The notes below the pieces were generated by a model, which made no database searches, was not told where the DNA came from, and saw only the letters and a list, made by a program, of their open reading frames with translations. Below, in pieces: positions 1,962 to 30,744 of a DNA stretch of 33,861 bases. Numbering within the stretch: position 1 is the stretch's first letter; each line of letters starts with the position of its first letter. Position numbers and translations under genes: made by a program. Origin of the DNA: Rhodocyclaceae bacterium (GTDB taxonomy: Bacteria; Pseudomonadota; Gammaproteobacteria; Burkholderiales; Rhodocyclaceae); NCBI GenBank assembly GCA_013426785.1, contig JACDZI010000032.1, forward strand, positions 1 through 33,861, written 5' to 3'.

Positions 1962-1985
1962 GCCGTCCCGCCAGCGCCGACATTT
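1962..1985 (+). repeat. Dispersed 24-bp repeat, copy 1
   Basis: Consensus core GCCGTCCCGCCAGCGCCGA followed by CTTTT. This copy matches the core fully and ends CATTT, giving 23 of 24. It lies in the cbpM-DUF1840 gap, 3 nt before the GAGGAG ribosome binding site of the next gene. Confidence 0.8.
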
Positions 1986-2002
1986 ATAGAGGAGTGTGAA
2001 TC

Positions 2003-2335
2003 ATGCTAATCACCTTTCGATCACAGGTAGCGGGCGACGTCATGATGTTCGACCATGTGGCCCGGCAGATGCTGAGAATCATCGGCAAGGAACCAGCCGA
2101 CAAGGGCATCATCACTGTAGCCCAACTGCCCGCCGCAATTGCGGCGCTGAAAGAAGCCATCACCGCCGACAAATCTGCGCGGACCGAACGCGCCGCTTCC
2201 GAAAAGTTGAAAGCCGAAACAGCACCGAACGATGGACAGGATTTGTTCGTGAGTGCTTCCCAGCGCGCCCAGCCGCTGCTCGAACTGTTCGAATGGTCGC
2301 GGAAAGGCGATAAGCCGGTGTTGTGGGAAGTGTGA
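2003..2335 (+). CDS. DUF1840 domain-containing protein
   Basis: The protein has 110 residues and matches the DUF1840 family along its length. The N-terminus is MLITFRSQVAGDVMMFDHVA (a strand and a helix), the middle is GKEPADKGIITVAQLPAAIAALKEAI, a variable charged linker follows (about 57-78), and the tail is QRAQPLLELFEWSRKGDKPVLWEV. Family members usually end in a similar PV-W-V motif. The function is unknown, and the family is largely betaproteobacterial, which is one clue to the host. The start at 2003 is supported by GAGGAG (1989-1994) at 8 nt. The xfp gene follows after 46 bp on the same strand, so the two may be co-transcribed. Confidence 0.88.
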   Translation: MLITFRSQVAGDVMMFDHVARQMLRIIGKEPADKGIITVAQLPAAIAALKEAITADKSARTERAASEKLKAETAPNDGQDLFVSASQRAQPLLELFEWSRKGDKPVLWEV

Positions 2336-2381
2336 TCGACATTCAGATTGAGGCAGCGACGAACATAACCGGAAAGTCATC

Positions 2382-4742
2382 ATGACCATTGACACCGATG
2401 AACTGAAGCACATCGACGCCTACTGGCGCGCCGCCAACTACCTCTCGGTAGGGCAGATTTATTTGTTCGACAATCCCCTGCTGAAGGAGCCCCTGCAACG
2501 GGTTCACATCAAGCCACGCCTGCTGGGTCACTGGGGCACCACGCCGGGACTGAACTTTATCTACGTGCACATGAACCGGGTGATCCGGCAGAAGGATCTG
2601 AGCATGATCTTCATCGCCGGCCCCGGTCACGGCGGCCCGGCGGTTGTGGCGAACACCTGGCTCGAAGGCAGCTACAGCGAACTGTATTCAGACATATCGC
2701 CGGACGAAGAGGGCATGCGCCGGTTATTCCGGCAGTTCTCCTTTCCCGGTGGGATTCCCAGTCATGCGGCTCCGGAAACGCCAGGTTCGATTCACGAAGG
2801 TGGCGAACTGGGCTATGCCTTGTTCCATGCCTACGGCGCGGTGTTTGACAACCCGGCGTTGATCGCCTGCTGCGTCGTTGGCGATGGCGAAGCGGAAACC
2901 GGGCCGCTGGCCACTTCGTGGCACTCCAACAAGTTCCTCAATCCTCGCACGGACGGTGCGGTGCTGCCGATCCTGCACCTGAATGGGTACAAGATCGCCA
3001 GCCCGACCATCTTCGCCCGCATCGACCGCACCGAACTGGAAAGCCTTCTGACGGGTTATGGCTACAAGCCCTACTTCGTCGAGGGCGACGAGCCCGAAGC
3101 CATGCATCGGCTCATGGCCGCCACGGTCGATACGGTGATTGCCGAAATTCGCGAAATCCAGTTCAGGGCACGGAATGAAAATGACGCGGGCCGCCCGCGC
3201 TGGCCCATGATCGTGCTGCGCTCACCGAAGGGCTGGACCGGGCCGAAGACAGTGGATGGCAAGAAAATCGAGGGCTACTGGCGTTCGCACCAGGTACCGT
3301 TCAGCGAAATGGAAAAGCCCGAGCATGTGCGGCTGCTGGAGCACTGGATGCAGTCCTACCGGCCGCAGGAACTGTTCGATGCCGACGGCCGGCTGATGCC
3401 CGAGCTGGCGACAATGGCGCCTATCGGCGCACGTCGCATGGGCGCCAATCCCCACGCCAACGGCGGTGGTTTGCTCCGCGACCTGCGCCTGCCGGATTTC
3501 CGTGACTATGCGGTGGCCGTAGCCACGCCCGGCGAAACGCTGGCCGAGTCGACGCGGGTGATGGGCATTTTCCTGCGCGACGTGATGCAGAAGAACCCGG
3601 ACAACTTCCGTGTCTTCGGCCCGGACGAAACCAACTCCAATCGCCTCGGTGCCTTGTTCGACGTCACCGACCGTAGCTGGATGGCTGAGCGGTTCGACTA
3701 CGACGACCATCTCGCCGCCGATGGCCGGGTGGTGGAATTTCTTTCCGAGCACGCCTGCCAGGGCTGGCTCGAAGGCTATCTGCTGACTGGCCGACACGGG
3801 CTCTTTTCGTGCTATGAGGCGTTCATCCACATCGTCGATTCGATGTTCAACCAGCACGCCAAGTGGCTGAAGGTCTGCAACGAAATTCCCTGGCGCTGCC
3901 CCATTGCCTCGCTCAATATCCTGCTCACCTCGCACGTCTGGCGGCAGGACAACAACGGCTTCTCGCACCAGGACCCGGGCTTCATCGATCACGTGGTGAA
4001 CAAGAAGGCCGACATCATCCGCGTCTATCTGCCGCCGGATGCCAACACGCTGCTAGTGGTCACCGACCAGTGCCTGCGGAGCCGCAATCTCATCAATGTC
4101 ATCGTTGCCGGCAAGCAGCCCGAGCATCAGTGGCTGGACATGGACGCCGCCATCAACCACGCCGGTGCCGGCATCGGCATGTGGGAATGGGCGTGCAACG
4201 ACCAGCCAGGTGAACCGGACATCGTGCTGGTAGCGGCGGGCGACGTGCCCACACTGGAAATGCTGGCGACCATCGCCATCCTGCGCGAGTTGGTACCCAA
4301 CCTGAAGATGCGCTTCATCAATGTCGTTGACCTGATGACCCTGCAACCGCAGGAGGAACACCCGCATGGCCTGTCGAGCAAGGAGTTCGATTCGTTGTTC
4401 GGCACCAACAAGCCGATCATCTTTGCCTACCACGGCTACCCGTGGCTGATCCATCGCCTGACCTACCGGCGCACCAGCCACCCCAACCTGCACGTGCGCG
4501 GTTACAAGGAGGAAGGCACGACGACCACGCCGTTCGACATGGTGGTACTCAACACCCTCGATCGCTTCCATCTGGTGATGGACGTGGCGAACCGGGTGCC
4601 GGAACTCCAGGCCCAAGCCGCACACATCAAGCAGCGCATGCGCGACAAGCTGACCGCGCACACCCGGTACATTCACGAGCACGGCGAAGACATGCCGGAA
4701 ATACGCGACTGGAAGTGGCCGGCGCAAGGAGCTAACCCATGA
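2382..4742 (+). CDS. xfp: Xylulose-5-phosphate/fructose-6-phosphate phosphoketolase
   Basis: The 786-residue length is normal for phosphoketolase. The enzyme uses thiamine diphosphate to split xylulose 5-phosphate or fructose 6-phosphate with phosphate, giving acetyl phosphate plus glyceraldehyde 3-phosphate or erythrose 4-phosphate. Visible motifs are GPGHGGPA (80-87), [10 protein letters not shown] (138-147) and the thiamine-diphosphate segment [17 protein letters not shown] (168-184). [12 protein letters not shown] (199-210), [11 protein letters not shown] and the [17 protein letters not shown] segment are also present. The N-terminal, central and C-terminal domains are all there without gaps, so it should be active. 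The start follows GGAAAG (2371-2376). The stop overlaps the tal start (ATGA 4739-4742), implying coupled translation. Whether the enzyme prefers the C5 or C6 sugar cannot be read here. Confidence 0.97.
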
Positions 4743-5857
4743 ACGACAGCAAGAACATGAAGAACGATAGCCCCTTGCTCGCGCTCAAGGCACTTGGTCA
4801 GCATGTCTGGCTCGACAATCTCTCACGCGCACTGCTGCAGGAAGGCAGCTTGCAGCGTCTGATCACCGAGGACGGGATCGACGGTGTGACCTCCAATCCT
4901 GCCATCTTTCAGAAAGCCATCGCCGGAAGCCCTTGTTACCACGATGAACTGGTGCGCTTGCGTAACTCGCCCCTCGCCGCCGAAGCACGCTACGAATCCC
5001 TGGTGATTCCCGACATTCAGGCGGCCTGCGATATTCTGCTGCCGGCTTACCTATCCACTCAGGGTGATACCGGTTACGTCAGTCTCGAAGTCTCGCCCGC
5101 CCTGGCACACGACGTAGCGGGCACGGTGGCGGCGGCACAGCGCCTGCGGCGTGCCGTCGGGCGCGAGAATCTGCTCATCAAGGTGCCGGGCACGCCCGCC
5201 GGGGTGCAGGCCTTCGAGCAGTTGACCGCTGCAGGCGTCCGCGTCAACGTCACGCTGATTTTCTCCCTAACGCAGTACGAAGCAGTAGCGCAGGCCTATC
5301 TGCGCGGTGCGCAGCGCTGGCTGGATGACGGCGGAAACACCGCGCAATGTCGCTCGGTGGCCAGCGTTTTCCTGAGTCGTGTCGATACCCGGGTAGACAA
5401 GCGCCTCGATGTCATCGGTGCAAAACCGGCCCTGGTGCTCAGGGGCAGAACCGGTGTGGCCCTCGCCAAGCGCTGCTATTCAAGATACCTGGAGATTTTC
5501 CACGGCCCGGCCTTCGCAACACTCGCAGAAGCCGGCGTGCGGTCGCAGACGCCCCTGTGGGCCAGCACCGGCAACAAGAATCCGGCTTACAGCGATCTGC
5601 TTTACGTCGAGCCGCTGATCGGTCCGGAAACCATCAGCACCCTGCCGGATGCAGCCCTTGCCGCTTTTCGCGATCACGGCTGCGCGGCCACCACGCTGAC
5701 GACCGGCATGCGTGAGGCACACAGCCACAATGTAGCGCTCAGGGCATTGGATATCGACCTTGGCGAAGTCGGCGACTCCTTGCAAACCGATGGCGTCCGC
5801 CTGTTCGGCGAGGCGTATGAACAGCTACTGATTGGCATCGCCCAATTACCGTACTGA
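4739..5857 (+). CDS. tal: Transaldolase
   Basis: The 372-residue length fits the longer (TalB2/mycobacterial-type) transaldolases. The enzyme moves a dihydroxyacetone unit from fructose 6-phosphate to erythrose 4-phosphate, giving sedoheptulose 7-phosphate and glyceraldehyde 3-phosphate. Motifs include [13 protein letters not shown] (49-61), [10 protein letters not shown] (111-120) with the strand acid, and [11 protein letters not shown] (145-155), in which K148 is the expected Schiff-base lysine. NVTLIFS (170-176) and the late [13 protein letters not shown] segment are also present. AAGGAG (4726-4731) lies inside the xfp end, 7 nt before the ATG, and the genes overlap by 4 nt. Erythrose 4-phosphate made by Xfp from fructose 6-phosphate is the acceptor for this enzyme, so the pair makes metabolic sense. 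Confidence 0.95.
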
Positions 5858-5909
5858 CGCCACCGTCCGTGCCTTCCTGCGGGAAAAGCCAATCGGCCCA
5901 ACGGTGGCG
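5858..5909. terminator. Long inverted repeat between convergent tal and coiled-coil genes
   Basis: CGCCACCGT (5858-5866), starting right after the tal stop, is a perfect inverted match to ACGGTGGCG (5901-5909). The 34-nt interior can form a further small TTCC/GGAA hairpin. No T run follows, so it may stabilise 3' ends rather than terminate by itself. Confidence 0.4.
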
Positions 5910-5924
5910 CGAGTCTTAAACTTG

Positions 5925-6212
5925 CTAATGTAACTTGGCCTGGGCATCAGCCAGGCCGGTTTTTAGGTCTTCCCAAATTTTGTCACTGGTTTCCTTGACC
6001 TGCGCCCACGCGTCGCCGCTGGCCTTCGCGAGTACCTTCATATTTTCAGAAGCGGCGCGTTGGCGCTTACGCAATTCAACAAGCTCACTTGAATACTTGA
6101 CCTTGAGGTCAGCCTCGGCGTTTTGAACTTTGGCTTCCAATAAATTGATTTGCGCGCTCCACTCCTTCAGTTGCGCTGCTCTTTTCTGTTTGCAGGCTTC
6201 TTGCAGTTCCAT
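5925..6212 (-). CDS. Small coiled-coil protein (sll1863-like stress protein)
   Basis: The protein has 95 residues and is almost entirely helical and charged. It begins MELQEACKQKRAAQLKEWSA, continues INLLEAKVQNAEADLKVKY, and ends ASGDAWAQVKETSDKIWEDLKTGLADAQAKLH. The spacing of hydrophobic residues fits a long coiled coil with no signal peptide or membrane segment. The pattern (K-W/I-LEAKA-AEAD near the front, SGEAW-LK-G near the end) resembles small proteins annotated as sll1863-family stress response; no biochemical role is known to me. AAGGAGT (6218-6224, read leftward) supports the start. It lies 41 bp after the BON lipoprotein gene on the same strand, so the two are probably co-transcribed. 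Its 3' end overlaps the terminator used by tal. Confidence 0.75.
   Translation of the reverse strand: MELQEACKQKRAAQLKEWSAQINLLEAKVQNAEADLKVKYSSELVELRKRQRAASENMKVLAKASGDAWAQVKETSDKIWEDLKTGLADAQAKLH
5937..5964 (+). terminator. Rho-independent terminator for xfp-tal inside the convergent gene
   Basis: GGCCTGG (5937-5943) pairs perfectly with CCAGGCC (5951-5957) around a 7-nt loop. TTTTT follows at 5960-5964. This is a classic intrinsic terminator for rightward transcription, about 80 nt after the tal stop. It falls inside the last codons of the leftward coiled-coil gene, where it encodes the LADAQAK region. Confidence 0.75.
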
Positions 6213-7480: not shown

Positions 7481-7501
7481 TTGACGTGCTGGCCGTGAAT
7501 C

Positions 7502-13613: not shown

Positions 13614-13637
13614 GCCGTCCTGCCAGCGCCGACTTTT
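13614..13637 (+). repeat. Dispersed 24-bp repeat, copy 2
   Basis: This copy is in the same orientation as copy 1, has one C-to-T change in the core, and ends CTTTT: 23 of 24 to the consensus. It lies 20 bp after the permease stop and 80 bp before the zinc-ribbon gene. Confidence 0.8.
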
Positions 13638-15105: not shown

Positions 15106-15284
15106 TCTCAAGCCAGCCGGTGCAGCCCGTACATCGTCCCCGCCAGCATGATGGGCGAGTGTCCTGGCTTCCGGGTTTATGCCGGAAAGATGGATGAAGA
15201 GCGCCAATGCCTTCGTACTCCAGCGCACGGAACTGCTGTGGGCGAAGATGACAATCCACCGATTGAACCGAATGGCGTTTGGCT

Positions 15285-17435
15285 ATGTCACGTTTTCTTA
15301 CCGTAGGGCTGCTAGTCTTTACCCTGACTGTGGGCGTGGCCTATCCCGCACAGCGGAAACCCGAGGCCGTCGTTGCCGTCGCTGCGGTGGAACCTCAAAT
15401 CGGTTTGATCCGCACGCTGATCGCTGTCGGCAAATTTGATCAGGCTGCGCTACTGATCAAGCCCTTGCGCCTGAAGTATCCAACCCATATCGAAGTGCTC
15501 GAAGCTGCTGCTGAGCTTGCCGCAGCCCGGCAAGACCATTTTGACGAGTTGGCCGCATATCAAATCATCGATGCACAACAACCCGGCTATCGCCTTGCCG
15601 TACGTGGCAAAGTGCTGGCCTTGGCGCGCCTGGGCATGCCGCAACTGGCGCTCGAACTGGCGGACCGCTACCCCGATGTGCTCACCATCGCAGAACATGA
15701 GGCGATCGCCGCTGACCGCACCGCGCGGCTGATTCGCTGGGGTGTGATTACTGCCGATAGCGGGCGCGGGCCAACGCGCTTCGCCGGAATCGACCGTGCG
15801 CTGGTCGATAGCGAGGCCGCGGCCGCGCTCGCCTTGAATCCGATTGCCGAACTGAGCGGGACCGAGCGCCAGCTTGCGCTCGACCGCATCATCGCCTTGC
15901 ACGCGCGCTATCGCATGCGTGACGCGGTGATCCTGTACGAGGCGATGGCGGCGCGGCCTGCTGCGCTGCCGGCCTATGTTCAGTCGGCCGCAGCGGGGGC
16001 TTATCTTTATCTTGAGCAGCCGGAGCGCGCGCGCGACCTGTATCGCGCAGCACTGGCCGACGTTCCCGACAACCTGGAATCGCGCCTGGGACTGTTCTAT
16101 GCGCTGGCCGAGGGCGAGGAACATGCAGCGGCGCTGACCCAGATCGAGAACACGGTCGCGGTTATACCGTCGCAGATAGATGCCTGGAGTCCAAAAACAA
16201 TCCACGAGAATCCTGCCTACGCCCGCGTGCTCGCCGCGCGCGCCATCGCGCCACTGCTGGCGAATCGGCCAGGCGAAGGTTGGCAGCGCCTGCAAGCCTT
16301 ATCCGCCAGGGCACCGGGCAACATGGATATTCGCACCGATTACGCGAGCGCCATGCGCGCCCGTGGCTGGCCACGCACCGCGGAGGAAGAGTTGCGCTGG
16401 ATACTTGCGCTCGTTCCAGGCCATAGCGGGGCGCTGGGCGAGCGCGCCGGCGCTCTGCTCGAAATGCGGGACTTCAAGCGTGCCGAAGCAGCGCTGGCTG
16501 CGGCACAAGCCGAGGAAGCCGAAAATGGACGCGTGGTGCGCGCCGGGCGGCTGGTAGAGGTCAACAATCTGCGCGAACTGATTGTCGATGGCACCTATGG
16601 CCGGTCGTCCGGCGGGCCCGGCGGGACGCGCGATCATGCACTCGATACATGGCTCTACTCAAGCCCCATCGCCTACAACTATCGTGTCTTCGGCCACGTG
16701 CACAACGCCGCAGCCAGCTTTGCCGCCGCTACCGCGAAGCGTAACCGGGCTGGCGTCGGCCTTGAATATCGCTCACCGCTGATAACCGCCAGCGGCGAGC
16801 TTTCGCATGATGCGACCGATGGGAATACAGGGTTGGCGGCGGCACTGGCCTACACACCGGATGACTATTGGACATTCGGCGGCACGCTTGCCACGGAGTC
16901 AAACGATGCGCCATTGCAGGCGAGCCTGGCCGGCATCAGCGCACGTCGCTTTGCCGGTGAAATTGGCTGGCGCGCCAGCGAGTCACGCAGTGCTGCCGTG
17001 TCCTATGCACTGATGGATTTCAGCGACGGCAATCGCCGCGATATTGCCCAGGGCCATTGGACCGAGCGGGTGATCGCCGGTCCAGTCTACAAGCTTGAAG
17101 TGACCGGCAGCGTTTACGCCTCGCAAAATTCACGCACCAACGCAGCGTATTTCAATCCGGAACGCGACGCTTCGGCAACGCTGGAGTTCAGCAACGAATG
17201 GCTGCAATGGCGACGGTACACCCAGGCATTTCGTCACCGGGTGATCGTCGAGGTCGGCAGCTACTGGCAGCAAGACTTCGGCAGCGGCGCGGTGGTCGGC
17301 GGTCGCTACGAACAGGAATGGGAGGCCGATGATCGCCTGACACTGCGCTACGGCCTCGGCCGCACCCGCCAGCCCTACGATGGCGTGCAGGAAGTGCGCA
17401 ACCATGGATTTTTTTACCTGAACTGGAGATTCTGA
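15285..17435 (+). CDS. pgaA: Poly-beta-1,6-N-acetylglucosamine export porin PgaA
   Basis: The protein has 716 residues, somewhat shorter than E. coli PgaA (about 800). A signal peptide (MSRFLTVGLLVFTLTVGVAYPA) is followed by a helical TPR region (about 35-420), with repeats such as QAALLIKPLRLKYPTHIEVL, then ARDLYRAALADVPDNLESRL. A beta-barrel follows (about 440-716) and ends in YLNWRF, with the terminal Phe expected of outer-membrane barrels. PgaA guides deacetylated polymer through the periplasm and across the outer membrane. ATG 15285 fits the signal peptide; a TTG two codons upstream is in frame, and neither has a strong ribosome site. The stop is one base from the pgaB start. Operon position confirms the identity. 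Confidence 0.92.
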   Translation: MSRFLTVGLLVFTLTVGVAYPAQRKPEAVVAVAAVEPQIGLIRTLIAVGKFDQAALLIKPLRLKYPTHIEVLEAAAELAAARQDHFDELAAYQIIDAQQPGYRLAVRGKVLALARLGMPQLALELADRYPDVLTIAEHEAIAADRTARLIRWGVITADSGRGPTRFAGIDRALVDSEAAAALALNPIAELSGTERQLALDRIIALHARYRMRDAVILYEAMAARPAALPAYVQSAAAGAYLYLEQPERARDLYRAALADVPDNLESRLGLFYALAEGEEHAAALTQIENTVAVIPSQIDAWSPKTIHENPAYARVLAARAIAPLLANRPGEGWQRLQALSARAPGNMDIRTDYASAMRARGWPRTAEEELRWILALVPGHSGALGERAGALLEMRDFKRAEAALAAAQAEEAENGRVVRAGRLVEVNNLRELIVDGTYGRSSGGPGGTRDHALDTWLYSSPIAYNYRVFGHVHNAAASFAAATAKRNRAGVGLEYRSPLITASGELSHDATDGNTGLAAALAYTPDDYWTFGGTLATESNDAPLQASLAGISARRFAGEIGWRASESRSAAVSYALMDFSDGNRRDIAQGHWTERVIAGPVYKLEVTGSVYASQNSRTNAAYFNPERDASATLEFSNEWLQWRRYTQAFRHRVIVEVGSYWQQDFGSGAVVGGRYEQEWEADDRLTLRYGLGRTRQPYDGVQEVRNHGFFYLNWRF

Positions 17436-17436
17436 G

Positions 17437-19215
17437 ATGCACCCGAGCGTGAGAAAAAATCGGCGCTGGCGGGACGGCGTTTCCAGGATGGTTCGTTCCG
17501 TCGTGACCATGCTGGCGCTGGCGGGTTTGGCCCTGATAACCGCGTCGCCGGCCCCGGCCGGTGATCCTGATCCGGTGCCGCTCGCCCCGGCCGTGCCGGC
17601 TGCGGGTAGCTTTACCATCATTGCCTATCACGCCATCCGGCACGATGTGCGCGATTATCCCGATTCCTTCGCTGTCGACGCATCGGCGTTGATCCGACAG
17701 TTTGCCTGGCTGCATGGCAATGGTTTTGCGCCGGTGAGTGTCGATGCCATCATCGCTGCGCGGCAGGGCGGCAAGCCCTTGCCGACCAAGGCGGTGCTAT
17801 TGAGTTTCGACGATGGATTCCTGTCGTTCTACACCCGCGTCTATCCCTTGTTGCGGGAGTTCCGCTTTCCCGCAGTGCTCAGTGTGGTGGGCGGTTGGAT
17901 CGACCGGCCGCGACGCGGGCAGCGCCAGTCGGGTGACCCCAACGCGGCCGCCGACATCAAGTTCGTCAGTTGGGGGCAATTGCGCGAAATGGTCGGCTCG
18001 GGCCTGGTCGAAATTGCTTCGCATAGCTATGACATCCACCACGGAGTACTGGGCAACCCGCAGGGCAATCGGCAGCCGGCAGCGACGACGCGTATCCTTG
18101 ATCCGGCCACGGGAAGCTACGAGGGTGATGCCGCCTGGCGCAGCAGGGTAGCCATCGACCTTGCCAAAAACTCGGACGTGATCGAACGCCAGACCGGGCA
18201 GCGTCCGCGCGTCATCGCCTGGCCTTATGGGCGCTACAACGATGAGTTGGTGGATATGGCGCGCGCGCTGGGCATGCCGATTGCGCTGACGCTCGAAGAC
18301 GGCACGAATACCCCGGACGTAGCGCTGGCGGCACTGCGGCGCACCCTGGTCGAACATAACCCGGTACTGATCGAGTTTGCCAGTGTCGAGCGCGGCCCGC
18401 TTTATCCGCAACCGGTGCGCGTCCTGGAGATCAGTCTTGATCAGATCCATAGCCCTGACGCGGCCCGGCAGGAACGCAATCTGTCGGCTTTACTAAATCG
18501 TGTCGACCTGCTTGAACCGACACTTATCTTTCTTCAGGCCATTACGGCTGAAGGCGGTTCCGCTACCTATTTCCCCAACCGGCATCTGCCGTTGCGTGCC
18601 GACCTGTTCAATCGTGTCGCCTGGCAACTGGTGTCGCGAACCGGTGTCAGTGTGTTTGCCGTCATGCCGCTTGCCGTTTCGGGCCTGTCCGCGAATCAGG
18701 TGGTGGAACTCTATGCGGATCTTGCCCGCCACGCCACATTCGACGGACTGGTGTTTGATGATACCGGTACCAGCGAAAAGCCCGGAATGCCCGATTTCAC
18801 CCTCAAGCTGGCAACACACGCACGTGCCTTTCGTGCGCCACTGAAGACGGTCCGCATCCTGAGCATGACATTGCCGGAGGTTGCGCAAGACTTTTCAGCC
18901 TTTGTCGCTGACTACGACTACATTGCCCTGCGCCTGCTGCCCGCCAACAATACCGTCGTCGTTCCCGATCATTGGTGGACTGCGCTGCGCGCACAAACAG
19001 GTCCACTGGCCGATGAACTGGACCCCCGGCGCAAGGTGATCTTCCTCCTAGACGGCAAGGCGCCAGCCCGGCAAATGCGCGCGCTGCAACTGGGTGGCGC
19101 TGTCAACTTCGGCTACCGGCCGGCCGATCTGCTGCACGACGATCCACCGTTGGCACAGTTTGCTCCGGCCATGTCACTGCGGGTCGATCCAGTGCCGCGC
19201 GGCAACCCAAAATGA
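17437..19215 (+). CDS. pgaB: Poly-beta-1,6-N-acetylglucosamine N-deacetylase PgaB
   Basis: The protein has 592 residues against about 670 in E. coli. The N-terminal NodB-type deacetylase domain (about 57-330) shows SFDDG (123-127), the metal-binding HSYDIHH (196-202) and WPYGRYN (262-268). The C-terminal half (about 335-590) is the glycoside-hydrolase-like domain with DGLVFDDTG at the usual acid cluster; shorter loops account for the reduced length. PgaB partly deacetylates the polymer in the periplasm before PgaA exports it. GGAG (17425-17428) lies 8 nt before ATG 17437. The signal core (SVVTMLALAGLALITASPAPA) starts about 20 residues in, behind an unusually long basic N-terminus that carries repeat copy 3; a second in-frame ATG at 17488 could be the original start. 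It overlaps pgaC by 4 nt. Confidence 0.94.
   Translation: MHPSVRKNRRWRDGVSRMVRSVVTMLALAGLALITASPAPAGDPDPVPLAPAVPAAGSFTIIAYHAIRHDVRDYPDSFAVDASALIRQFAWLHGNGFAPVSVDAIIAARQGGKPLPTKAVLLSFDDGFLSFYTRVYPLLREFRFPAVLSVVGGWIDRPRRGQRQSGDPNAAADIKFVSWGQLREMVGSGLVEIASHSYDIHHGVLGNPQGNRQPAATTRILDPATGSYEGDAAWRSRVAIDLAKNSDVIERQTGQRPRVIAWPYGRYNDELVDMARALGMPIALTLEDGTNTPDVALAALRRTLVEHNPVLIEFASVERGPLYPQPVRVLEISLDQIHSPDAARQERNLSALLNRVDLLEPTLIFLQAITAEGGSATYFPNRHLPLRADLFNRVAWQLVSRTGVSVFAVMPLAVSGLSANQVVELYADLARHATFDGLVFDDTGTSEKPGMPDFTLKLATHARAFRAPLKTVRILSMTLPEVAQDFSAFVADYDYIALRLLPANNTVVVPDHWWTALRAQTGPLADELDPRRKVIFLLDGKAPARQMRALQLGGAVNFGYRPADLLHDDPPLAQFAPAMSLRVDPVPRGNPK
17455..17478 (-). repeat. Dispersed 24-bp repeat, copy 3 (inside pgaB start)
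   Basis: Reverse orientation. The 19-base core is perfect and one base in the C-TTTT tail differs (23 of 24). It encodes KNRRWRDG in the N-terminal extension of PgaB, ahead of the hydrophobic signal core. Confidence 0.8.
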
Positions 19216-20510
19216 TGATCCCGCTCATCCCGGACCCGGGCTTGTCGCCGGTTGAGTTCTTTTCCACCTACTCCTTCTACTACCCGATGTTCATGGCGTA
19301 TTTGTGGATGATCGGCGCGGTGTTTTACTACGTTCGCTACGAACGGCCACCTAGGAGTCACCGCGACCTGCCGGGCAATCAAGCGGAAACACCCCCGCCG
19401 CTGAGCGAGTATCCGCTCGTGACGATGGTCGTCCCCTGTCACAACGAGGGGCGCGATATCGCCGCGACGGTCAGGTATTTGCTGGCGTCGACCTACCCGA
19501 ACTTCGACATCCTCCTGGTCGATGATGGCAGCGCCGACGAAACACAACATATTCTCGATGCGCTTGCCACGCAGCACACCAAGGTGCGCGTGATCCACTT
19601 CACCCGCAACCAGGGCAAGGCTGTCGCGCTCAACACGGCGGCGCTGATGACGCCGGCGCAGTACCTGTGCTGCATCGATGCCGATGCGCTGCTGGACCCT
19701 CATGCGCTGTCCTGGCTGATGGTGCATTTCCTGAATCCGCGTGTCGGTGCCGTTACTGGAAATCCGCGCGTGCGCAACCGTTCGACGCTGCTCGGCCGAC
19801 TGCAGGTGGGCGAGTTTTCCTCGATTGTCGGACTCATCAAGCGTGCGCAGCGCACCTACGGCCGTATTTTCACGGTCTCCGGCGTCGTGGCGTGCTTTCG
19901 CAAAGCGGCCTTGCACGATGTCGCTTACTGGAGCCCCGACATGCTGACCGAAGATATCGACGTCACCTGGAAGTTGGAACTGCGGCACTGGGACGTGCGC
20001 TTCGAGCCCAAGGCGCAATGCTGGATCCTCGTGCCGGAGACGCTGCGTGGCCTGATGACGCAGCGCCTGCGCTGGTCCATGGGCGGCATCCAGGTGATGC
20101 TGAAAAACTGGCGCATCGAGCATGTGTGGGCAGCGCGCCGCATGTGGCCCGTGCTGCTGGAGTTTTTCATGAGCGTGGTCTGGGCTTACGGCATATTCTT
20201 TATCGCCGTGCTCTGGCTACTTGGCAAAGTCATCGACCTGCCGCCCTATTACCAGGTAACCACGTTCCTGTCGGGCTGGAACGGCGTCATCGTGGGCACG
20301 ACCTGCCTACTGCAGATCGGAACGAGTCTCGCCCTTGACGCACGTTACGACAAGTATTCGTTCAAGGCCTTTTACTGGATGATCTGGTATCCGCTGGCGT
20401 ATTGGATCCTTAACATGCTGACGACGATCATCGCAGTGCCGCGTACCTTGCTGCGCAAGGGCAACCAGCGGGCACGCTGGACCAGTCCGGATCGCGGTTT
20501 GCTGCCATGA
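19212..20510 (+). CDS. pgaC: Poly-beta-1,6-N-acetylglucosamine synthase PgaC
   Basis: The protein is a 432-residue processive family 2 glycosyltransferase. A membrane helix (about 22-40) precedes the cytosolic catalytic domain. The catalytic domain has VVPCHNEG (73-80), LVDDGSAD (102-109), the DAD metal site (156-158), TEDID (247-251, base aspartate) and QRLRW (284-288). Further membrane helices follow (about 310-400). It polymerises UDP-N-acetylglucosamine at the inner membrane and in E. coli needs PgaD and cyclic di-GMP; no cyclic di-GMP enzyme is in this window. The ATG overlaps the pgaB stop (ATGA), with a second ATG one codon later. All catalytic motifs are intact. Confidence 0.96.
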   Translation: MMIPLIPDPGLSPVEFFSTYSFYYPMFMAYLWMIGAVFYYVRYERPPRSHRDLPGNQAETPPPLSEYPLVTMVVPCHNEGRDIAATVRYLLASTYPNFDILLVDDGSADETQHILDALATQHTKVRVIHFTRNQGKAVALNTAALMTPAQYLCCIDADALLDPHALSWLMVHFLNPRVGAVTGNPRVRNRSTLLGRLQVGEFSSIVGLIKRAQRTYGRIFTVSGVVACFRKAALHDVAYWSPDMLTEDIDVTWKLELRHWDVRFEPKAQCWILVPETLRGLMTQRLRWSMGGIQVMLKNWRIEHVWAARRMWPVLLEFFMSVVWAYGIFFIAVLWLLGKVIDLPPYYQVTTFLSGWNGVIVGTTCLLQIGTSLALDARYDKYSFKAFYWMIWYPLAYWILNMLTTIIAVPRTLLRKGNQRARWTSPDRGLLP

Positions 20511-20974
20511 GCATGAAATATCCCCTGGTCGAGCGTCCTGAACTTCAGTCAGGGCGTCAGCGAACGTTGTATGGCGCGTTGACGCTGATATTCTGGGTAC
20601 TCTGGATCTACCTGTGGCTACCGCTGCTTGCGCTACTGGCGTGGGCACTCGGGGTAGAGCAGGCCTACAAATACATGATTGTGCTCGGCGGCTATAACGA
20701 TTTCTTGCGGGTGCTGGGCATGTATGGTCTGGTCATACTCTTGCTGGGGTGCGGGCTGATTGTCTGGGCGATCTACAACATTGTCCGTTTTGGCGGCGGG
20801 GAGAGTCGCCTTACCCCGCTAGCGGTGACTGATGCGCAGATCGGACGTCATTTCGGCCAAGAACACGCCGCTATAGCGCACTGGCAACTCGCCCGATGTC
20901 TCCATGTGTCGCACGACGATAACGGCCGTATTGCCTGCGTCGAGATACCAGCCGCCTATGCTCATCGATCCTGA
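20507..20974 (+). CDS. pgaD: PNAG biosynthesis accessory protein PgaD
   Basis: The protein has 155 residues. Two membrane helices (about 21-48 and 68-93) are joined by a short loop and followed by a cytoplasmic tail of about 60 residues. This matches PgaD, which pairs with PgaC and is stabilised by cyclic di-GMP. Sequence conservation in PgaD is low, so position supports the call: it is the last gene of pgaABCD and overlaps pgaC by 4 nt (ATGA). The tail segment LAVTDAQIGRHFGQEHAAIA resembles the family cytoplasmic region. In the 173 bp after the stop are a small GTGCG/CGCAC hairpin (21004-21017) and repeat copy 4. Confidence 0.88.
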   Translation: MSMKYPLVERPELQSGRQRTLYGALTLIFWVLWIYLWLPLLALLAWALGVEQAYKYMIVLGGYNDFLRVLGMYGLVILLLGCGLIVWAIYNIVRFGGGESRLTPLAVTDAQIGRHFGQEHAAIAHWQLARCLHVSHDDNGRIACVEIPAAYAHRS

Positions 20975-21064: not shown

Positions 21065-21088
21065 AAAAGTCGGCGCTGGCGGAACGGC
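21065..21088 (-). repeat. Dispersed 24-bp repeat, copy 4
   Basis: Reverse orientation, with one base different from the consensus (23 of 24) and a complete T tail on the repeat strand. It is intergenic, between pgaD and the small membrane peptide gene. Confidence 0.8.
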
Positions 21089-21297: not shown

Positions 21298-21587
21298 CTG
21301 CCGCCTACTTCGCGCCGTGGCTGGTGCGCGAAAACCCTGAACAAGCGGAGCAATAAAAGATCTAACGGGCAGCGCGGTCAATTGGAGCAGGCGTCCGCGT
21401 CTGGTGCGCTGTGTGCGCCACCGTACCGTCAGGGCCGACGATTCTGTCTAAGCTGATGCCAAGGTTTCAGTGCGGCATGCGCGTTGTGTACGGTCCTAGG
21501 CTGTCTTCTGTCCAGAATACAGCGCGGACAGTTCGGCGCCAAACCGGCTCGAGAAGTCCTGTTTCACTCATCTTTGGAGATTCAATC
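21298..21587. other. Intergenic region of 290 bp
   Basis: It separates the small membrane protein gene from the BON lipoprotein gene. An open frame from about 21411 runs in phase into the BON gene, but its product has no signal peptide or family character. No terminator, operator or RNA gene is convincing. The promoter of the BON gene is presumably in the right half. Confidence 0.3.
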
Positions 21588-22011: not shown

Positions 22012-25000
22012 ATGAAACTCGGCGATTATCTCGGCGGATCCATGCGTCGGATGCAGGCGCGTTTGAGCCGTGGCAACTGGTCTGGAAGCTCGCCCGACGA
22101 GGAGCCTCCGTTGCGCGCGGAGCTATTCAGTGCCGACCAGATGGAACAGCATGGCAAGGTGCTCGCTGCTTCGCACCGACTGGCTACGGGGCGCGCACCG
22201 GACCAGCTTCTGGCGCGACTGGCAGCGAACGAAACCACCTTGGTCGAGGTGTTTCAGCTGCTGACGGCGGCGGTGACGGAGAAGCGCCGGATCTCGCCAG
22301 CCGGCGACTGGCTGCTCGATAACTTCTATCTCATCGAAGAGCAGATACGTACCGCCAAGCGCCACTTGCCCAAAGGCTACAGCCGCGAACTCCCGCGTTT
22401 GGCCTCCGGGCCCTCGGCCGGGCGACCGCGCGTCTATGACATTGCGCTGGAGACGGTGGCGCATGGCGATGGTCGCGTCGATACGGCAAGCCTCAGTCGC
22501 TTTGTGGCAGCCTACCAGACCATCACGGATCTCAAGCTGGGAGAGCTATGGGCGATCCCGATCATGCTACGGCTGGCCGTGATCGAGAATCTGCGGCGGG
22601 TTGGCGTCCAGATCGCCGCCGGCTGGGTTGAGCGCAATCTGGCGGATTCCTGGGCGGACCAAATGATGGAGACCGCCGAACGCGATCCCAAGAGCCTGAT
22701 TCTGGTGATTTCCGACATGGCGCGTTCGGATCCGCCGATGGTCGGTGCCTTCGTCGCGGAGCTCGCGCGTCGCCTGCAGGGTCGCGGCCCCGCTCTGGCC
22801 TTGCCATTGACCTGGATCGAGCAACGACTGTCTGAATCAGGCCTGACGATCGCGCAGTTGGTGCAGGGCGAGAACCAGCAGCAGGCTGCCGATCAGGTTT
22901 CCGTCAGCAACTGTATTGGCAGCCTCAGGGTGCTGGGGGCGGTGGACTGGCGCGAATTTGTCGAAACTCTGAGCTCTGTTGAGCATGCCTTGCTTGAAGA
23001 TCCGGACGGCGTCTATGGCCGGATGGATTTTGCCAGCCGTGACCGTTATCGTCATGTCACGGAGCGGATTGCGAAGCTGGGCTGTCTGACAGAACTTGAG
23101 GTGGCGCGCAGGGGGGTCGAGCTGGCCTGTGCGGCAGAGGATGGCACTCGCGCCAGGCATGTTGGCTACTATCTGATCGACAAGGGCTTGCCCGCACTTG
23201 AACGGGCAGCGGGAGTGCGCCTTTCCGCTCTCTTTGCCTGGCGCAGACAAGCCGGCCAGTTCCCCTTGTTGATCTACTTAAGCGCTATCACGTTGATGAC
23301 TGCGATGGCCACCGGCAGTCTGCTGGTACAGGCACTGGTTGCAGGCGTGAATGATTGGGTCTTGCTGGCAGTTGGCTTCGCCGCACTGCTGGGCACCAGC
23401 CAGTTAGCCGTGGCGCTGGCGAATTGGCTGGCGACCTTGCTAGTGGCCGCACAGACGCTGCCCAGAATGGACTTCTCGAAGGGCATCCCCGTGCCAGCGC
23501 GCACGCTGGTGGTGGTACCGACCATGCTGACGAGCACGGCGGGCATCGAAGATCTGGCCGAAGCTTTGGAAGTGCGGTTTCTGGCGAATCGGGATGAATG
23601 CCTGCACTTCGGCCTGCTGACAGACTTTCGTGACGCCTGCCAGGAATCGCTTCCCGAGGATGAAGCCTTGCTGCAACTTGCCCGAATGCGGATTGACGAG
23701 CTGAACGAGAAATACCGTGGAAGCCGGCTTGGGGTAGCGGATGACATTTTCTTTCTCTTCCATCGTCCGCGTCGCTGGAACCCTCAGGAGCGTATCTGGA
23801 TGGGCTACGAGCGCAAGCGGGGCAAGCTGGCCGATTTGAACGCGCTGCTGCGTGACGTGCCCAACGGCAGCGCCAGGGACGGATTTTCGCTGATTGTGGG
23901 GCACACTGCCGTGTTGTCCGGCGTGAAGTACGTGATCACCCTGGATACGGATACACAACTGCCGCGCGACGCGGCGCGGCAATTTGTCAGTGCCATGGCG
24001 CACCCGCTGAATCGGGCAGACTATGATGCCGGGAAGCAGCTGGTTGCGACCGGTTACGGTATTTTGCAGCCGCGCGTGGCCATCAGCCTGCCGGGCACCA
24101 ACCGCTCGGGCTATGCCCGCTTGTACGGCGGGGAACCGGGCATCGACCCTTATACGCGCGCCGTCTCGGATGTGTATCAGGATGTATTTGGCGAAGGCTC
24201 ATTCATTGGCAAGGGCATCTACGACATCGATGCCTTTGAGCACGCGGTCGGCGGCCGCTTCCCAGAAAATGCCATCCTCAGCCACGATCTGCTGGAAGGC
24301 TGCTACGCGCGGGCCGGGTTGTTGAGCGATGTGCAGTTATACGAGGACATCCCCGCCAGCTACAGCGCCGATGTCAGCCGCCGTCACCGCTGGATGCGCG
24401 GCGACTGGCAACTCGCTGACTGGCTGCGGCGAAGCGTGCCGGGTGCGGGTGCGCAGTGTCAACAGAATCCGCTGTCGTTTCTGTCGCAATGGAAGCTGAT
24501 CGACAACCTGCGACGCAGCCTCGTTCCGGCGGCGCTGATGCTATTGCTGCTGCTGGGGTGGACGATGTTCTCCTCGGCAGGCTTGTGGGTCGTGTCGGTG
24601 ATCGGCATCCTGCTGTTGCCCGCACTGTGCGGTGCAATGCTCGACCTGTTGCGCAAGCCGGAGGAATTGTTGTGGCGGCAGCATCTTGCCGCTATTGCTC
24701 ATGCGCTGGACCGGCACTTGAGGCAGGTGGCGTTCGAATTCGCCTGTCTGCCGTACGAGGCCTATTTCAGTCTGGATGCCGTTGCCCGTACTGTCTGGCG
24801 AATGCGCGTCACGCACCAGCGTCTGCTGGAATGGAACCCGTCCAGCGAATCGAATCGGGATGACACAGGCACGCTCGCCGCCGAAGTCCGGCGGATGTGG
24901 ATTGGCCCCGTTCTCGCCATTGCCGTGAGTGGCCATCTGCTGACATCAACACCGGCGGTACTGGCGGTGGCGTGGCCGCTTCTGTTGCTGTGGTTAATCT

Positions 25001-28000
25001 CGCCGGTGATTGCGTGGTGGGTCAGTCGTCCGCTCGCTCACCGCACGGCCACCCTGACGGTCGAACAGACCTTATTCCTGCGCGCGCTGGCACGACGGAC
25101 CTGGGCGTTCTTCGACAATTTCGTTGGTGCGGACGATCATTGGTTGCCACCGGACAACTATCAGGAATATCGCGTTGCCGCGATCGCCCACCGCACCTCG
25201 CCGACCAACATGGGGATGGCGCTGCTGGCGAATCTGGCCGCCTATGACTTTGGTTACCTCGTGTCCGGCCAACTTGTCGAACGTACGGCGCACACGCTCG
25301 CCACGATGGATGGGCTGGAGCGACATCGCGGGCATTTCTATAACTGGTACGACACTCAATCGCTGCAACCCCTGCCGCCGCGCTACATCTCGACCGTGGA
25401 CAGCGGCAATCTCGCCGGCCATTTATTGACCTTGCGCGCCGGTTTGCTGGCACTGGCCGACGACAGGATTGTCCCGGCACGCTTGTTCGATGGTTTGAGC
25501 GACACGTTCAATCTGCTTGAGGCCAATCTGGGCGACGTGACCAATGGCGCCGCAGGCACACTGGTTGCGCTACGGAGCGAACTGGCTGCAGCCAGCGCTA
25601 CCCCGCCCGCCACCCTCGCGGCACTGCGCTTGACTCTGGCCCGGCTGGCTACCCTGGCCTCAGAATTCGTCACCGCGATTATGGTCAGACAGGATGACGA
25701 GGACAAAGATGCGACGCCCGGCAGCGAAGCGCATACGTGTGTCCAGGCGCTGGTCAAGCAAGTGCGCGCGGCATTGGACGAACTGGACTTCATCGCCCCC
25801 CCGGAAAGGTTTGCCGACTATGGCAAGCTCGCCGCCCTTCCGACCTTGCGTGAAATGCTGAAGGCGGGAAGCATTGCTGCTCGAGAACGCATGGCGGAGA
25901 TCGAGCGCCTGGCGCAACTTTGTCTTGAACTGGCACGCATGGAGTTCGACTTCCTGTTCGACAAGACGCGCCATCTGCTGGTCATCGGCTACAACGTGGA
26001 CGAACGGCGGGCCGACACGAGCTACTACGACCTGCTGGCCTCCGAAGCGCGCTTGAGCAATTTTGTCGCCATCGCGCAGGGGCAGTTGCCGCAGGAAAGC
26101 TGGTTCTCTCTAGGCCGTTTGCTCACCAGTACCAGCGGCGAACCAGTATTGCTGTCGTGGAGCGGTTCGATGTTCGAGTACCTGATGCCGCTCCTGGTGA
26201 TGCCCTGCTACGACAACACGCTGCTCGACCAAACCTGCAAGGCAGCAGTGGCGCGGCAGATCGAGTATGGCCGCCAGCGTGGCGTGCCCTGGGGCATCTC
26301 GGAATCCGGTTACAACACGGTCGACCAGCATCTCAATTACCAATACCGTGCCTTCGGCGTGCCAGGGCTGGGGTTGAAGCGCGGATTGGCCGATGATCTG
26401 GTCATCGCACCGTATGCCTCTGTGCTGGCATTGATGGTCGCGCCCGAGGTGGCCTGCCTGAATTTGCAATGCCTGGCTTCCGAGGGTTATATCGGTCGCT
26501 TCGGTTTCTTCGAGGCCATTGACTACACACCCGCCCGGCAGCGCCGTGGGCAAACGGCTACGGTGGTACGCTCCTTCATGGCACACCATCAGGGCATGAG
26601 CCTGCTGGCCCTGGCCTACCAGATTCTGGAACGACCCATGCAGCGGCGCTTCGAGTCGGATCGCCTGTTCCAGGCGGTCATGCTCCTGCTACAGGAACGG
26701 ATTCCCAAGGCCACGTCCTTGTTCTCGCACACGGCGCAGCTGGCCGACATGCGCGCGGCCATCGACGTTACTGAAGCACCGATCCAGCGCTTCAACAGCC
26801 CCGACACACCGCAACCCGAAGTGCAGTTGTTGTCGAACGGCCGCTATCACGTCATGCTTACCAACGCGGGCGGCGGCTACAGCCGCTGGAAGGATCTCGC
26901 CGTCACGCGCTGGCGCGAGGACGGCACCTGCGACAACCGGGGCAGCTATTGTTACGTCCGTGAAGTGGGCAGCTTGGAGCCATGGTCGGTCACCCATCAG
27001 CCGACGCTCAAACCAGCGGACAGCTACGAGGCGATATTCTCGGAGGGGCGCGCCGAGTTTCGCCGTCGCGATGGTCAGTTCGAGACCTATACCGAAATCG
27101 TCGTCTCGCCGGAAGACGATATCGAATTGCGCCGCGTCCGTATCACCAATCGCTCGCGCCAGCGGCGGCAGATCGAAGTAACCAGTTATGCCGAAGTCGT
27201 GATCGCACCGCCTGCTGCCGATGCGCTGCATCCGGCTTTCAGCAATCTGTTCGTGCAGACCGAGATCCTGGCGGAACGAAATGCGATCTTGTGTACGCGG
27301 CGACCACGCTCGCTGGACGAGCAATCGCCCTGGATGCTCCATCTGATGGTGGTGCATGACGCAGCGAGCGGCGAAGTGTCCTGCGAAACGGATCGCCTGC
27401 GCTTCATCGGTCGGGGAAGAAATGCCGTTGCACCTCTGGCGCTACACTATCAAGACACACTGGCCGGCATGTTTTCCACACCACGCCGTCCCGCCAGCAC
27501 CGACTTTTCGGGGGTATCACTTTCAAACAATGCTGGCTCGGTACTGGATCCCATCGTCGCCATCCGTACTTCGATCATGCTCGATCCGGAACAATCGGTC
27601 ACCGTCGATATCGTGTCGGGCATTGCCGAGACGCGCGATCTGGCCGTGAGCTTGGTCAATAAATACCGGGACCGCCATCTGGCGGATCGCGTTTTCGATC
27701 TGACGTGGACCCACAGCCAGGTGATGTTGCGCCAGATCAATGCCACCGAGGCCGATGCGCAACTTTATGCACGGCTCGCCAGCGCCGTCATCCACGCCAC
27801 CGCCACCCTGCGCGCGGACCCTGCCGTGCTCATCAAGAACCGTCGCGGGCAGTCGGGACTGTGGGGGTATGCGATTTCCGGCGACCTGCCGATCGTGCTG
27901 CTGCAGATCGGTGATGCGGCCAATATCGACCTGGTGCGCCAACTTGTGCAGGCCCATGCCTACTGGCGCCTGAAGGGGTTGGCGGTAGACCTGGTGATCT

Positions 28001-30744
28001 GGAACGAGGATCACGCCGGTTACCGGCAACAATTGCAGGAACAGATCATGGGGCTGATTGCCTCGGGCATCGAGGCCAGCGTGATCGACCGGCCAGGCGG
28101 TATCTTCGTGCGGCCCGCCGAGCAGATCTCTGGTGAGGACCGCATCCTGCTCCAGTCGGTCGCCCGTGTGCTCATCACCGACACGCGGGGAACTCTGACG
28201 GAGCAGTTCGATCACGGCCTGCCGCTGGAACCGCGCATGCCGGTGTTCAAGCCGATCCGGGTCTATCGACCGGATGCGCCGGCGGCCATTGCCCCGCCGC
28301 GCAACGATCTGATCCTGTGTAACGGACTGGGCGGCTTCACCCGGGACGGTCGCGAATACGTCATGACCATCAACCCCGGCCAGACAACACCGGCGCCCTG
28401 GGTCAATGTCGTGGCCAATCCGTACTTCGGTACGATCGTCTCGGAGAGCGGCGGGTCCTACACCTGGAGCGAGAACGCGCACGAGTTCCGCCTCACCCCC
28501 TGGCACAACGATCCGGTCAGCGATGCCAGCGGCGAGGCGCTCTATCTGCGCGACGAAGAGACAGGCCACGTCTGGTCTCCGACGCCGTTGCCCGCTCGCG
28601 CCGCGACGCCCTACCTCATCCGCCATGGTTTCGGCTATAGCGTTTTCGAGACGCGGGTGGGCGGCATCCACTCGGAACTCTGGATTTACGTGGCGACGGA
28701 TGCCCCCGTCAAGTTTTCGGTGCTGATACTGCGCAACGAATCCCGCCGGCCGCGACGGCTTTCCGCCACGGGCTACGTCGAATGGGTACTGGGCGATCTG
28801 CGGGAAAAATCGGCCATGCATGTGAGTACCGAAATTGCCCCGCAATGCGGCGCACTCTACGCGCGCAATCCCTACAACCCGGAATTCGGCGAGCGGGTGG
28901 CGTTCTTCGACGTGGATGCCCCGGCACGCAACCTCAGCGGCGACCGCACGGAATTCATCGGCCGTAACGGCACACTTGAATACCCTGCCGCCCTTAAGCG
29001 CACGCGCCTGTCCGGGAAGGTCGGCGCCGGCCTTGATCCTTGCGGCGCGCTTCAGGTCAGCATCGATCTGGCCGAAGGTCAGGAACGGGAGATCGTCTTC
29101 CGCCTCGGCGTCGGCCGCAATGCCGCCGAAGCCGACACGCTGGTACATCGTTTCCGTGGTTCGCCTGCGGCACGCGAAGCGCTCGAAGCGGTGTGGCAGC
29201 AATGGAACCACACCCTCGGCGCGATACAGATCGAATCTCCCGATCCGGCGCTCAACGTGTTGGCCAACGGCTGGCTGGTGTATCAAACCCTGGCCTGCCG
29301 CATCTGGGCGCGTAGTGGTTACTACCAGTCCGGTGGCGCCTTTGGCTTCCGCGACCAGTTGCAGGATGTCATGGCACTGATCCACACCCGGCCGGGATTG
29401 GTGCGCGAACACCTTCTGCTGTGCGCCAGCCGCCAGTTCGTCGAAGGCGATGTTCAGCACTGGTGGCATCCGCCGTCGGGCCGGGGGGTGCGTACGCGTT
29501 GCTCGGATGACTTTCTCTGGCTGCCGCTGGCGGTCTGCCGCTATGTGACAAGCAGCGGCGATACGGGCGTGCTGGACGAGCCTGTGCACTTTCTTGAGGG
29601 CCGCGCGGTCAATCCGGAAGACGACTCCTACTACGACCTGCCCGGCCGTTCCGTCGATACCTCCAGCCTCTACGAGCACTGCGTGCGCGCCATTCGGCAC
29701 GGCCTGCGCTTTGGCGCACGCGGTCTGCCACTGATCGGTTCCGGCGACTGGAACGATGGCATGAACCGGGTGGGTATCCTCGGCAAGGGCGAGAGCGTCT
29801 GGCTGGGTTTTTTCCTCTGCGAAGTGCTCGGGGAATTCTCGGCGCTGGCGGGACGGCATGGTGACGCATCATTCGCCGCGCTGTGTACCGATGAGGAGGC
29901 CCGACTGCGCCGGAACATCGAGGAGCACGGCTGGGATGGCGAGTGGTACCGCCGCGCCTATTTCGACGACGGCACGCCGCTCGGTTCAGCAGATAACGTG
30001 GAATGTCGCATCGATTCGATCTCGCAGAGTTGGTCCGTGCTCTCTGGTGCGGGCGATGCCGTGCGGGCGCGCCAAGCCATGCAGGCGGTGGACGCGCAAC
30101 TTGTGCGTCGCGACGATGGCCTTGTCCAGCTACTCGATCCGCCCTTCGATAAGGCGAACCTCGACCCTGGCTACATCCGCGGCTACGTACCGGGAGTGCG
30201 CGAGAACGGCGGCCAATACACCCATGGCGCAATTTGGGCGGCAATGGCGTTTGCCAAGTTGGGCGAGTGTAAACGCGCTTGGGAACTGCTGAACATGATC
30301 AACCCGGTTAACCACGCCTTGTCGGCAGATGCAATCGCTACCTACAAGGCAGAACCCTATGCCGTCGCGGCCGACGTCTATGGTGCTAGGCCACACATCG
30401 GGCGCGGCGGCTGGAGTTGGTATACCGGCTCCGCCGGCTGGATGTACCGGCTGGTCGTGGAATCCTTGCTGGGCCTGCGCCTGGAGGGGAATACACTGCA
30501 TCTTGAACCCTGCCTACCCACCGATTGGCCGGGTTTCACGATCCACTACCGCTATCGCGAAAGCGTCTATCACATTGTTGTTTCCCGCGCACCCGAAGGA
30601 AAAATATTGGAGGGTGGCATGATGAGTGTGGCAGTCGATGGTGTCAATCAAGCCGATAGAACCATTCCCCTTGTTGGTGAACAACGCGAACATTGGGTTG
30701 AGGTGAAGGTGCAACCCGGCAAGGGCCGACTTAGCTTTCAATAG
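22012..30744 (+). CDS. ndvB: Cyclic beta-1,2-glucan synthase (GT84-GH94)
   Basis: The 2,910-residue length matches NdvB/Cgs enzymes (about 2,830-2,870). The domain order is as in the family. Membrane helices lie near 417-475, 838-880 and 961-1005. The GT84 domain between them has [10 protein letters not shown] (D645, D647) and [11 protein letters not shown] near 790. A glucoamylase-like domain (about 1380-1500, [12 protein letters not shown], then [19 protein letters not shown]) is followed by two GH94-type sandwich regions (from about 1610 and 2097). The GH94 barrel has [10 protein letters not shown] (2576-2585) and its catalytic aspartate. The enzyme starts, elongates, cyclises and trims beta-1,2-glucan at the inner membrane, giving periplasmic cyclic glucans for osmotic adaptation and host contact. 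GGGGGA (22002-22007) supports the start. Residues near 1810-1845 look longer than I recall in homologues and contain repeat copy 5. Confidence 0.96.
27485..27508 (+). repeat. Dispersed 24-bp repeat, copy 5 (inside ndvB)
   Basis: Forward orientation, one G-to-A change in the core and a complete C-TTTT tail: 23 of 24. It encodes RRPASTDF in an apparently extended segment of the glucan synthase. Confidence 0.75.
29834..29857 (-). repeat. Dispersed 24-bp repeat, copy 6 (inside ndvB, core only)
   Basis: Reverse orientation. The 19-base core is perfect but the C-TTTT tail matches poorly, giving 21 of 24. It encodes SALAGRHG in the GH94 part, where the protein seems to align without an insertion, so this copy could be fortuitous. 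Confidence 0.55.

Follow-up and report, generated by a model that had tools for sequence, protein, structure and literature searches.

In the accessible part of a 2025 article (PMC12616744), Neisseriaceae and Pasteurellaceae are the only families named as recognising their own DNA by uptake motifs. The same text describes the DNA uptake sequence (DUS) of Neisseriaceae as continuous, up to about 13 bases long and frequently found as inverted repeats with a terminator function, and the uptake signal sequence (USS) of Pasteurellaceae as discontinuous, with a 9-base core, two less conserved A/T-rich regions, two dialects and many copies. Eight DUS dialects, distributed in line with the core-genome tree, and thousands of DUS per genome are reported in the available portion of PMC3630211; according to the available text of PMC2397512, neisserial DUS are commoner in permissive parts of the core genome, point mutation alone is no explanation for them, homologous regions occur without any similar motif, and recombination is given as a route. 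We report here on a 24-base repeat present in six copies in a DNA stretch of 33,861 nucleotides from a Rhodocyclaceae bacterium (contig JACDZI010000032.1, assembly GCA_013426785.1), the whole of which is hereafter called the window. Judged from sequence comparisons across genomes, the motif probably serves natural transformation as an uptake (self-recognition) sequence, and the betaproteobacterial family concerned is most likely Rhodocyclaceae. No report of the motif sequence, or of uptake sequences in Rhodocyclaceae, was found in the literature searched, preprints and most subscription papers lying outside that search.

Abundance, structure and dialects of the motif

The initial annotation had described the six copies as an unexplained dispersed repeat whose genome-wide number was to be compared with that of controls. 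In the 3.24-Mb source genome of the window (G000; throughout, G-numbers denote genomes, g-numbers genera and L-numbers sampled stretches), the 24-mer was found 706 times at three or fewer mismatches (343 and 363 by strand) and the reversed pattern not at all, while the 19-mer at two or fewer mismatches was found 657 times (313 and 344) against 1 and 0 for its reversed pattern. The count being far above the control, the repeat is real, strongly non-random and much larger in extent than the window. A motif logo was built from the 91 copies (19-mer at two or fewer mismatches) in a 431-kb sample of G000 made up of the window and 20 stretches. It reads Y-GCCGTCCCGCCAGCGCCGACTTTT, with 21 of the 24 positions at 84 to 91 of 91 copies and with the seventh (78/91) and eighth (69/91) bases as the weakest. 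The sharp ends noted earlier were borne out, as the copies carried almost no information beyond the 24 bases except that position -1 was a C or T in 80 of 91. Within the sample, GCCGT and GACTTT were separated by 12 bases in 83 instances and by 8 to 11 or 13 to 16 bases in none. The consensus has no stop codon in any of its six reading frames, its single strand hardly folds (-0.5 kcal/mol), and the density of copies was about 1 per 4.6 kb.

Counts of 10-mers made with no pattern assumed beforehand, on samples of between 18 and 431 kb, ranked the motif or one of its dialects first in G000, G002, G026, G028, G079, G086, G114 and G187 and placed it within the first five in G110 and G141. The top 10-mers of G064, G087, G105, G168 and G277, all with low copy number or small samples, did not include it, and nor did those of G005, G023, G033 and G194. 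Shared across dialects is GCCGT-N12-GACTTTT at one spacing (the GCCGT-GACTTT spacings of 8-11 and 13-16 gave 0 or 1 match each among the further genome samples listed), and the middle differs. The g1 consensus is GCCGTCCCGCCAGCGCCGACTTTT, to which the dialects of g62, g70 and g88 are close; the g9 dialect has CCAGCACC, the g69 dialect CCAGCGTC and the g11 dialect nGngACTGACTTTT, g47 being similar to g11 (5 copies only), and the dialect of g2 is GCCGTGTCgCCgGCGCC (7 copies only). There are at least three forms of the motif middle between genera, that is, dialects with a shared core. A separate repeat, ACGGTCATGACTTTTCCA, was seen in genus g19, with 114 copies in G036 and 38 in G120 at three or fewer mismatches and with 1 and 3 in its own reversed controls; it has GACTTTT in common with the motif but not GCCGT, and in G120 it lies partly in inverted pairs about 30 bases apart, and it is not claimed as a dialect. 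Another repeat, around AATGGACAATCTGG, was seen in G002 (L031-L049), where 11 copies of this 14-mer occurred in 380 kb against an expectation near zero.

Across 297 genomes of the family, exact GCCGT-N12-GACTTTT occurred at least 13 times in 48, belonging to nine genera, and at most 10 times in the other 249, with reversed controls at 5 or fewer. Genomes at or above 13 matches made up 10/12 of g1, 11/12 of g2, 1/1 of g9, 10/11 of g11, 1/2 of g47, 1/1 of g62, 1/1 of g69, 4/4 of g70 and 9/9 of g88; G016 had 6 bipartite matches, yet 181 copies of the 24-mer at three or fewer mismatches. The count did not exceed 8 in 386 genomes from 50 other families of the order, where reversed controls reached 15 in one genome (G500). 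The 19-mer was found at least 294 times in 18 of 19 genomes of the source genus (all except G005) as well as in G019 and G026; its count was 0 to 6 in the 16 other genera sampled within the family and in 24 further families of the order, each represented by one genome. Bipartite matches were absent from G005 (g1) and G194 (g11) and numbered 10 in G277 (g2), whereas sister species have many; these cases are apparent losses or reductions of the motif within genera, with G005 being 87% complete.

The exact 24-mer was also present in at least 112 named public stretches. Among the 80 listed, 66 were titled Rhodocyclaceae, Rhodocyclales, Sulfuritalea, Sulfurisoma, Propionivibrio or Azonexus, and 14 had other labels, including unclassified beta- and gammaproteobacteria, Thiobacillus, Rubrivivax and Casimicrobiaceae; NCBI taxonomy places Sulfuritalea in Sterolibacteriaceae and Propionivibrio in Rhodocyclaceae. 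Some further occurrences are recorded in their own right. G384, from another family (f38), combines both main dialects among its eight bipartite matches, a case of transfer, contamination or an independent carrier. G097 (g80) holds sixteen copies of the 24-mer, 10 of the 13 listed being on contigs C104, C66 and C557, and this clustering suggests transferred or contaminating DNA. The exact 24-mer is found, too, in 23 contigs labelled viral (L212-L234), which may be phage or host DNA; L212 has six copies at four or fewer mismatches in 8.6 kb.

Origin and placement of the copies

To compare the copies with their counterparts in relatives, each site was aligned with orthologous DNA among the fetched loci, pairs of more than 95% identity having been removed beforehand, and a partner was scored as motif-bearing by the main dialect only, at five or fewer mismatches nearby. 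This yielded 89 ortholog pairs from 61 sites, in which 55 partners were also motif-bearing and 34 (26 sites) were motif-free; the latter were 62-79% identical and hence not close strains. Sites are thus present in some orthologs and absent from others, and they are not all old and conserved, a point that the initial annotation had proposed to examine. Over the motif and 9 bases on either side, the two members of a motif-free pair were equal in length in 15 of 34 cases (12 sites), and in none of the 34 was the partner 24-25 bases shorter or longer. Otherwise the partner was anything from 34 bases shorter to 167 bases longer, and six 9-base deficits were among these differences, five of them from one site. 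Partial matches also occur, such as GCCGTCCCGAAGCCGCCGGCTTTG opposite a perfect copy (L046 vs L181).

At the protein level, homologs were available for 65 of 363 sites and gave 50 split pairs from 35 sites, as opposed to 7 and 6 at controls 150 bases away, so that the sites are located where protein homologs differ in length; in 14 of 47 gap-free pairs the partner matched the consensus at 24/24. An earlier protein-level gap test of 768 pairs was left unused, since many pairs were of about 30% identity and probably reflected chance in G+C-rich DNA. Taken together, the DNA alignments and the protein splits indicate that the motif replaces local sequence where change is tolerated and is not an inserted unit.

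The copies are enriched outside genes: in the G000 sample, at four or fewer mismatches and with a simple gene caller, 43 of 104 sites were non-coding as compared with 14.6% non-coding DNA, and 61 lay in genes. Gaps between sites were more even than random (coefficient of variation 0.763 vs 0.933 simulated, p = 0.009). Both strands were represented in 17 of the 20 G000 stretches with at least two sites and in 14 of 17 such stretches of G002; a strand polarity suspected in G002 from plus-strand places only was ruled out by sampling. The strand bias that characterises oriented motifs such as FtsK-orienting polar sequences (KOPS) and Chi was therefore not found, the strands mixing within 20 kb, on the scale of single stretches. 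Intergenic sites in G000 numbered 8 on 8.9 kb of convergent gaps, 7 on 13.3 kb of divergent gaps and 26 on 38.0 kb of codirectional gaps (p = 0.59); within codirectional gaps the motif was on the same strand as the genes in 13 cases and on the opposite strand in 13, the corresponding figures for G002 being 7 and 4. These local properties (gap classes, strand mixing, open frames and weak fold) tell against an oriented motif for segregation as well as a hairpin-forming repeat, and on the same grounds a general promoter or operator role is unlikely.

Proposed uptake role and rival explanations

From this pattern we infer a link to DNA uptake, a receptor and a drive. On a DNA fragment, one copy would be bound via the boxes GCCGT and GACTTTT by a receptor on the competence pilus or the cell surface, the bases between the boxes being genus-specific, and uptake and recombination would be more frequent for fragments with a good copy. 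Through such a bias, copies would multiply and persist at permissive sites genome-wide, regardless of strand and both inside and outside genes, and each lineage would be free to drift towards a dialect of its own. Among the functions first suggested for the repeat, an uptake sequence is accordingly the one favoured, short of proof, while the mobile element falls away and an oriented chromosome motif is unlikely given the strand mixture in G000; a binding motif without orientation retains some likelihood. If the uptake reading is true, an environmental family whose copy numbers range from none to about 700, with apparent losses within genera and with dialects, would offer direct tests of how such a tag originates, spreads and is lost and of what its receptor is, and a set of environmental bacteria would be marked as likely naturally transformable.

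The competence machinery was surveyed in genomes with and without the motif. ComEC was present in 48 of 48 genomes examined, motif-bearing or not, DprA in 31 of 33, and the ComP_DUS family (PF16732) above cut-off in 53 of 61 and 34 of 39 genomes with or without the motif. In G000 a minor pilin of the ComP_DUS family lies directly upstream of a GspH/FimT-family gene. A loss of the ComP-like pilin in G194 was rejected, the gene being found at C5:27112-27324. These genes permit transformation and single out no receptor.

Several observations weigh against an uptake sequence. Neither ComEC nor ComP-like pilins follow the distribution of the motif, ComEC being carried by motif-poor genomes and PF16732 occurring on both sides; G005 and G194 are without the motif, yet keep ComEC, DprA and a ComP-like pilin. 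Conversely, two motif-bearing genomes of the 33 examined, G019 and G114, gave no DprA match, and the motif-bearing G086, G316, G239 and G302 gave none to PF16732. In the small samples of G086 and G105, strands mixed in 0 of 2 stretches. Convergent gaps were favoured in G002 (L031-L049), with 9 sites on 7.7 kb against 1 on 11.8 kb of divergent and 11 on 31.8 kb of codirectional gaps (p = 0.0008), and six genomes pooled gave 20 convergent, 10 divergent and 44 codirectional sites (p = 0.056); the bias in G002 could mean that promoter gaps are avoided or that the motif has a secondary role in termination, as DUS pairs do. The ribosomal-protein cluster L058 (G000:C76:1-20000) had no motif copies and, at 52.9%, the lowest G+C content of the sampled G000 stretches; because this sole site-free 20-kb stretch consists of ribosomal-protein genes, lower motif density at low G+C is no evidence of absence from mobile DNA, and motif-free low-G+C islands were dropped as evidence of uptake. 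Moreover, close pairs are absent as an arrangement (2 of 84 gaps in the G000 sample were below 200 bases), whereas DUS are often inverted repeats in the accessible text of PMC12616744; the density of about 1 per 4.6 kb is below that of DUS, given as thousands per genome in the available part of PMC3630211; and 24 bases exceeds the length of known uptake motifs.

The main rival, which we regard as unlikely though deserving of attention, is that the copies are binding sites of a chromosome-organising or nucleoid protein, with protein and site co-diverging between genera. A 24-base bipartite motif of fixed spacing does suggest a protein reading two helix turns, and the even spacing and the retention of the motif in 55 of 89 ortholog pairs would agree with such a role, but there is no local strand polarity, and direct selection would be needed on about 700 interchangeable 24-base sites, some of them inside genes. 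The absence of the motif from G005 and G194 beside motif-bearing sister species would furthermore be unexpected for a needed organiser. Improbable in turn is a recombination signal that works within the cell and not at uptake, either as a hotspot of the Chi kind or by promoting exchange: high copy number and dialects would fit it, but known Chi sites are short and polarised along replication, whereas here the strands mix and the motif is 24 bases long.

Two explanations appear very improbable. A very small mobile or selfish element inserting a 24-25 base unit would account for the sharp ends, the consensus open in six frames and the many copies, and the initial annotation had listed the trace of such an element; it fails on the 34 aligned motif-free partners, none of which is 24-25 bases shorter, 15 being of equal length and one having a 34-base deficit, and dialects at one fixed spacing are unlike copies of one element. 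A regulatory element (operator, promoter part or terminator) draws on the 41% of sites that are non-coding, on the T run in which the motif ends and on the favouring of convergent and avoidance of divergent gaps in G002. G000 itself, however, showed no significant gap-class preference and an even strand split in codirectional gaps, 61 of 104 sites lie in genes, the single strand hardly folds, and mere tolerance would likewise explain why promoter gaps are avoided. A functionless sequence, old and conserved or compositional, can be practically dismissed, for although the family is G+C-rich, the reversed pattern of equal composition occurs 1 (19-mer) and 0 (24-mer) times in G000, and partners equal the consensus at 24/24 in 14 of 47 gap-free protein-level pairs.

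Window copies and known uptake sequences

A scan of the window confirmed all six copies at the positions and on the strands first annotated, and dinucleotide-preserving shuffles of the window (n = 100) gave 0 matches to the motif. Compared with GCCGTCCCGCCAGCGCCGACTTTT, five copies have 1 mismatch of 24 and the sixth has 3, as had been described. The copy at 1962..1985 (+) is intergenic, 17 bases 5' of the ATG (2003) of a DUF1840 gene; that at 13614..13637 (+) is intergenic between a MacB/FtsX permease gene (end 13593) and a DUF1451 gene (start 13682); that at 17455..17478 (-) lies between a pgaA-like gene (end 17435) and the likely start of a pgaB-like gene (17488); and that at 21065..21088 (-) is intergenic, downstream of a pgaD-like gene (end 20974). 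The remaining two lie within a 2910-aa GH94 gene (22012-30744), where the copy at 27485..27508 (+) encodes RRPASTDF and the three-mismatch copy at 29834..29857 (-) encodes SALAGRHG. The initial annotation had divided the copies into three intergenic and three genic. Both GH94 copies are indeed genic, but the copy at 17455-17478 is probably intergenic, because the likely pgaB-like start is the ATG at 17488, which is followed by a signal-peptide-like stretch; four copies are therefore probably intergenic and two lie in the GH94 gene. The peptide KNRRWRDG attributed to 17455-17478 derives from the upstream in-frame ATG at 17437 and not from the likely start.

A degenerate seventh site, ACCGTACCGTCAGGGCCGACGATT, is located at 21420..21443 (+), at the start of a BON-domain open reading frame (ORF), and has 6 mismatches of 24; its ortholog in G012 (L071:1773) reads ACCGTACCGTCAGCGCCGACTTTC and, with 4 mismatches, is nearer the consensus. 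The segment 21135-21297, before the BON-domain ORF, showed 78-83% DNA identity to G007, G009 (twice), G011, G012 and G015 among the matches listed. A pgaABCD-like polysaccharide cluster occupies 15279-20974 of the window and is followed by the GH94 gene. In a search of the genus for orthologs of 4.5 kb of the window, 15 candidates were scored per genome out of as many as 636; most of them were motif matches, so the search is uninformative on regional absence in relatives.

Among known repeats, those of the repetitive extragenic palindromic (REP) and miniature inverted-repeat transposable element (MITE) type insert as units and usually form hairpins. The motif resembles them in its many dispersed copies and differs in having no signature of unit insertion and hardly any fold. 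Like neisserial DUS, as far as the accessible texts cited above describe them, it is over-represented, lacks polarity, has dialects and replaces local sequence, and its placement where homologs vary is in line with DUS in permissive core regions (PMC2397512). Unlike DUS, which are continuous and up to about 13 bases long (PMC12616744), it comprises 24 bases, is bipartite and belongs to another family, and the CTG core of DUS (PMC12616744) is found here in the g11 and g47 forms only. With the USS of Pasteurellaceae it shares a discontinuous motif, dialects and many copies (PMC12616744); it departs from USS in that nearly all 24 positions are strongly conserved in G000 and in that the dialect-variable part lies between two fixed boxes. 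On these comparisons we lean towards the view that a third family, most likely Rhodocyclaceae, would have its own 24-base two-box uptake sequence, which would be read across two turns of the helix and whose dialects, at least three at genus level, would partition gene exchange, and that this sequence would be independent of, or far diverged from, neisserial DUS.
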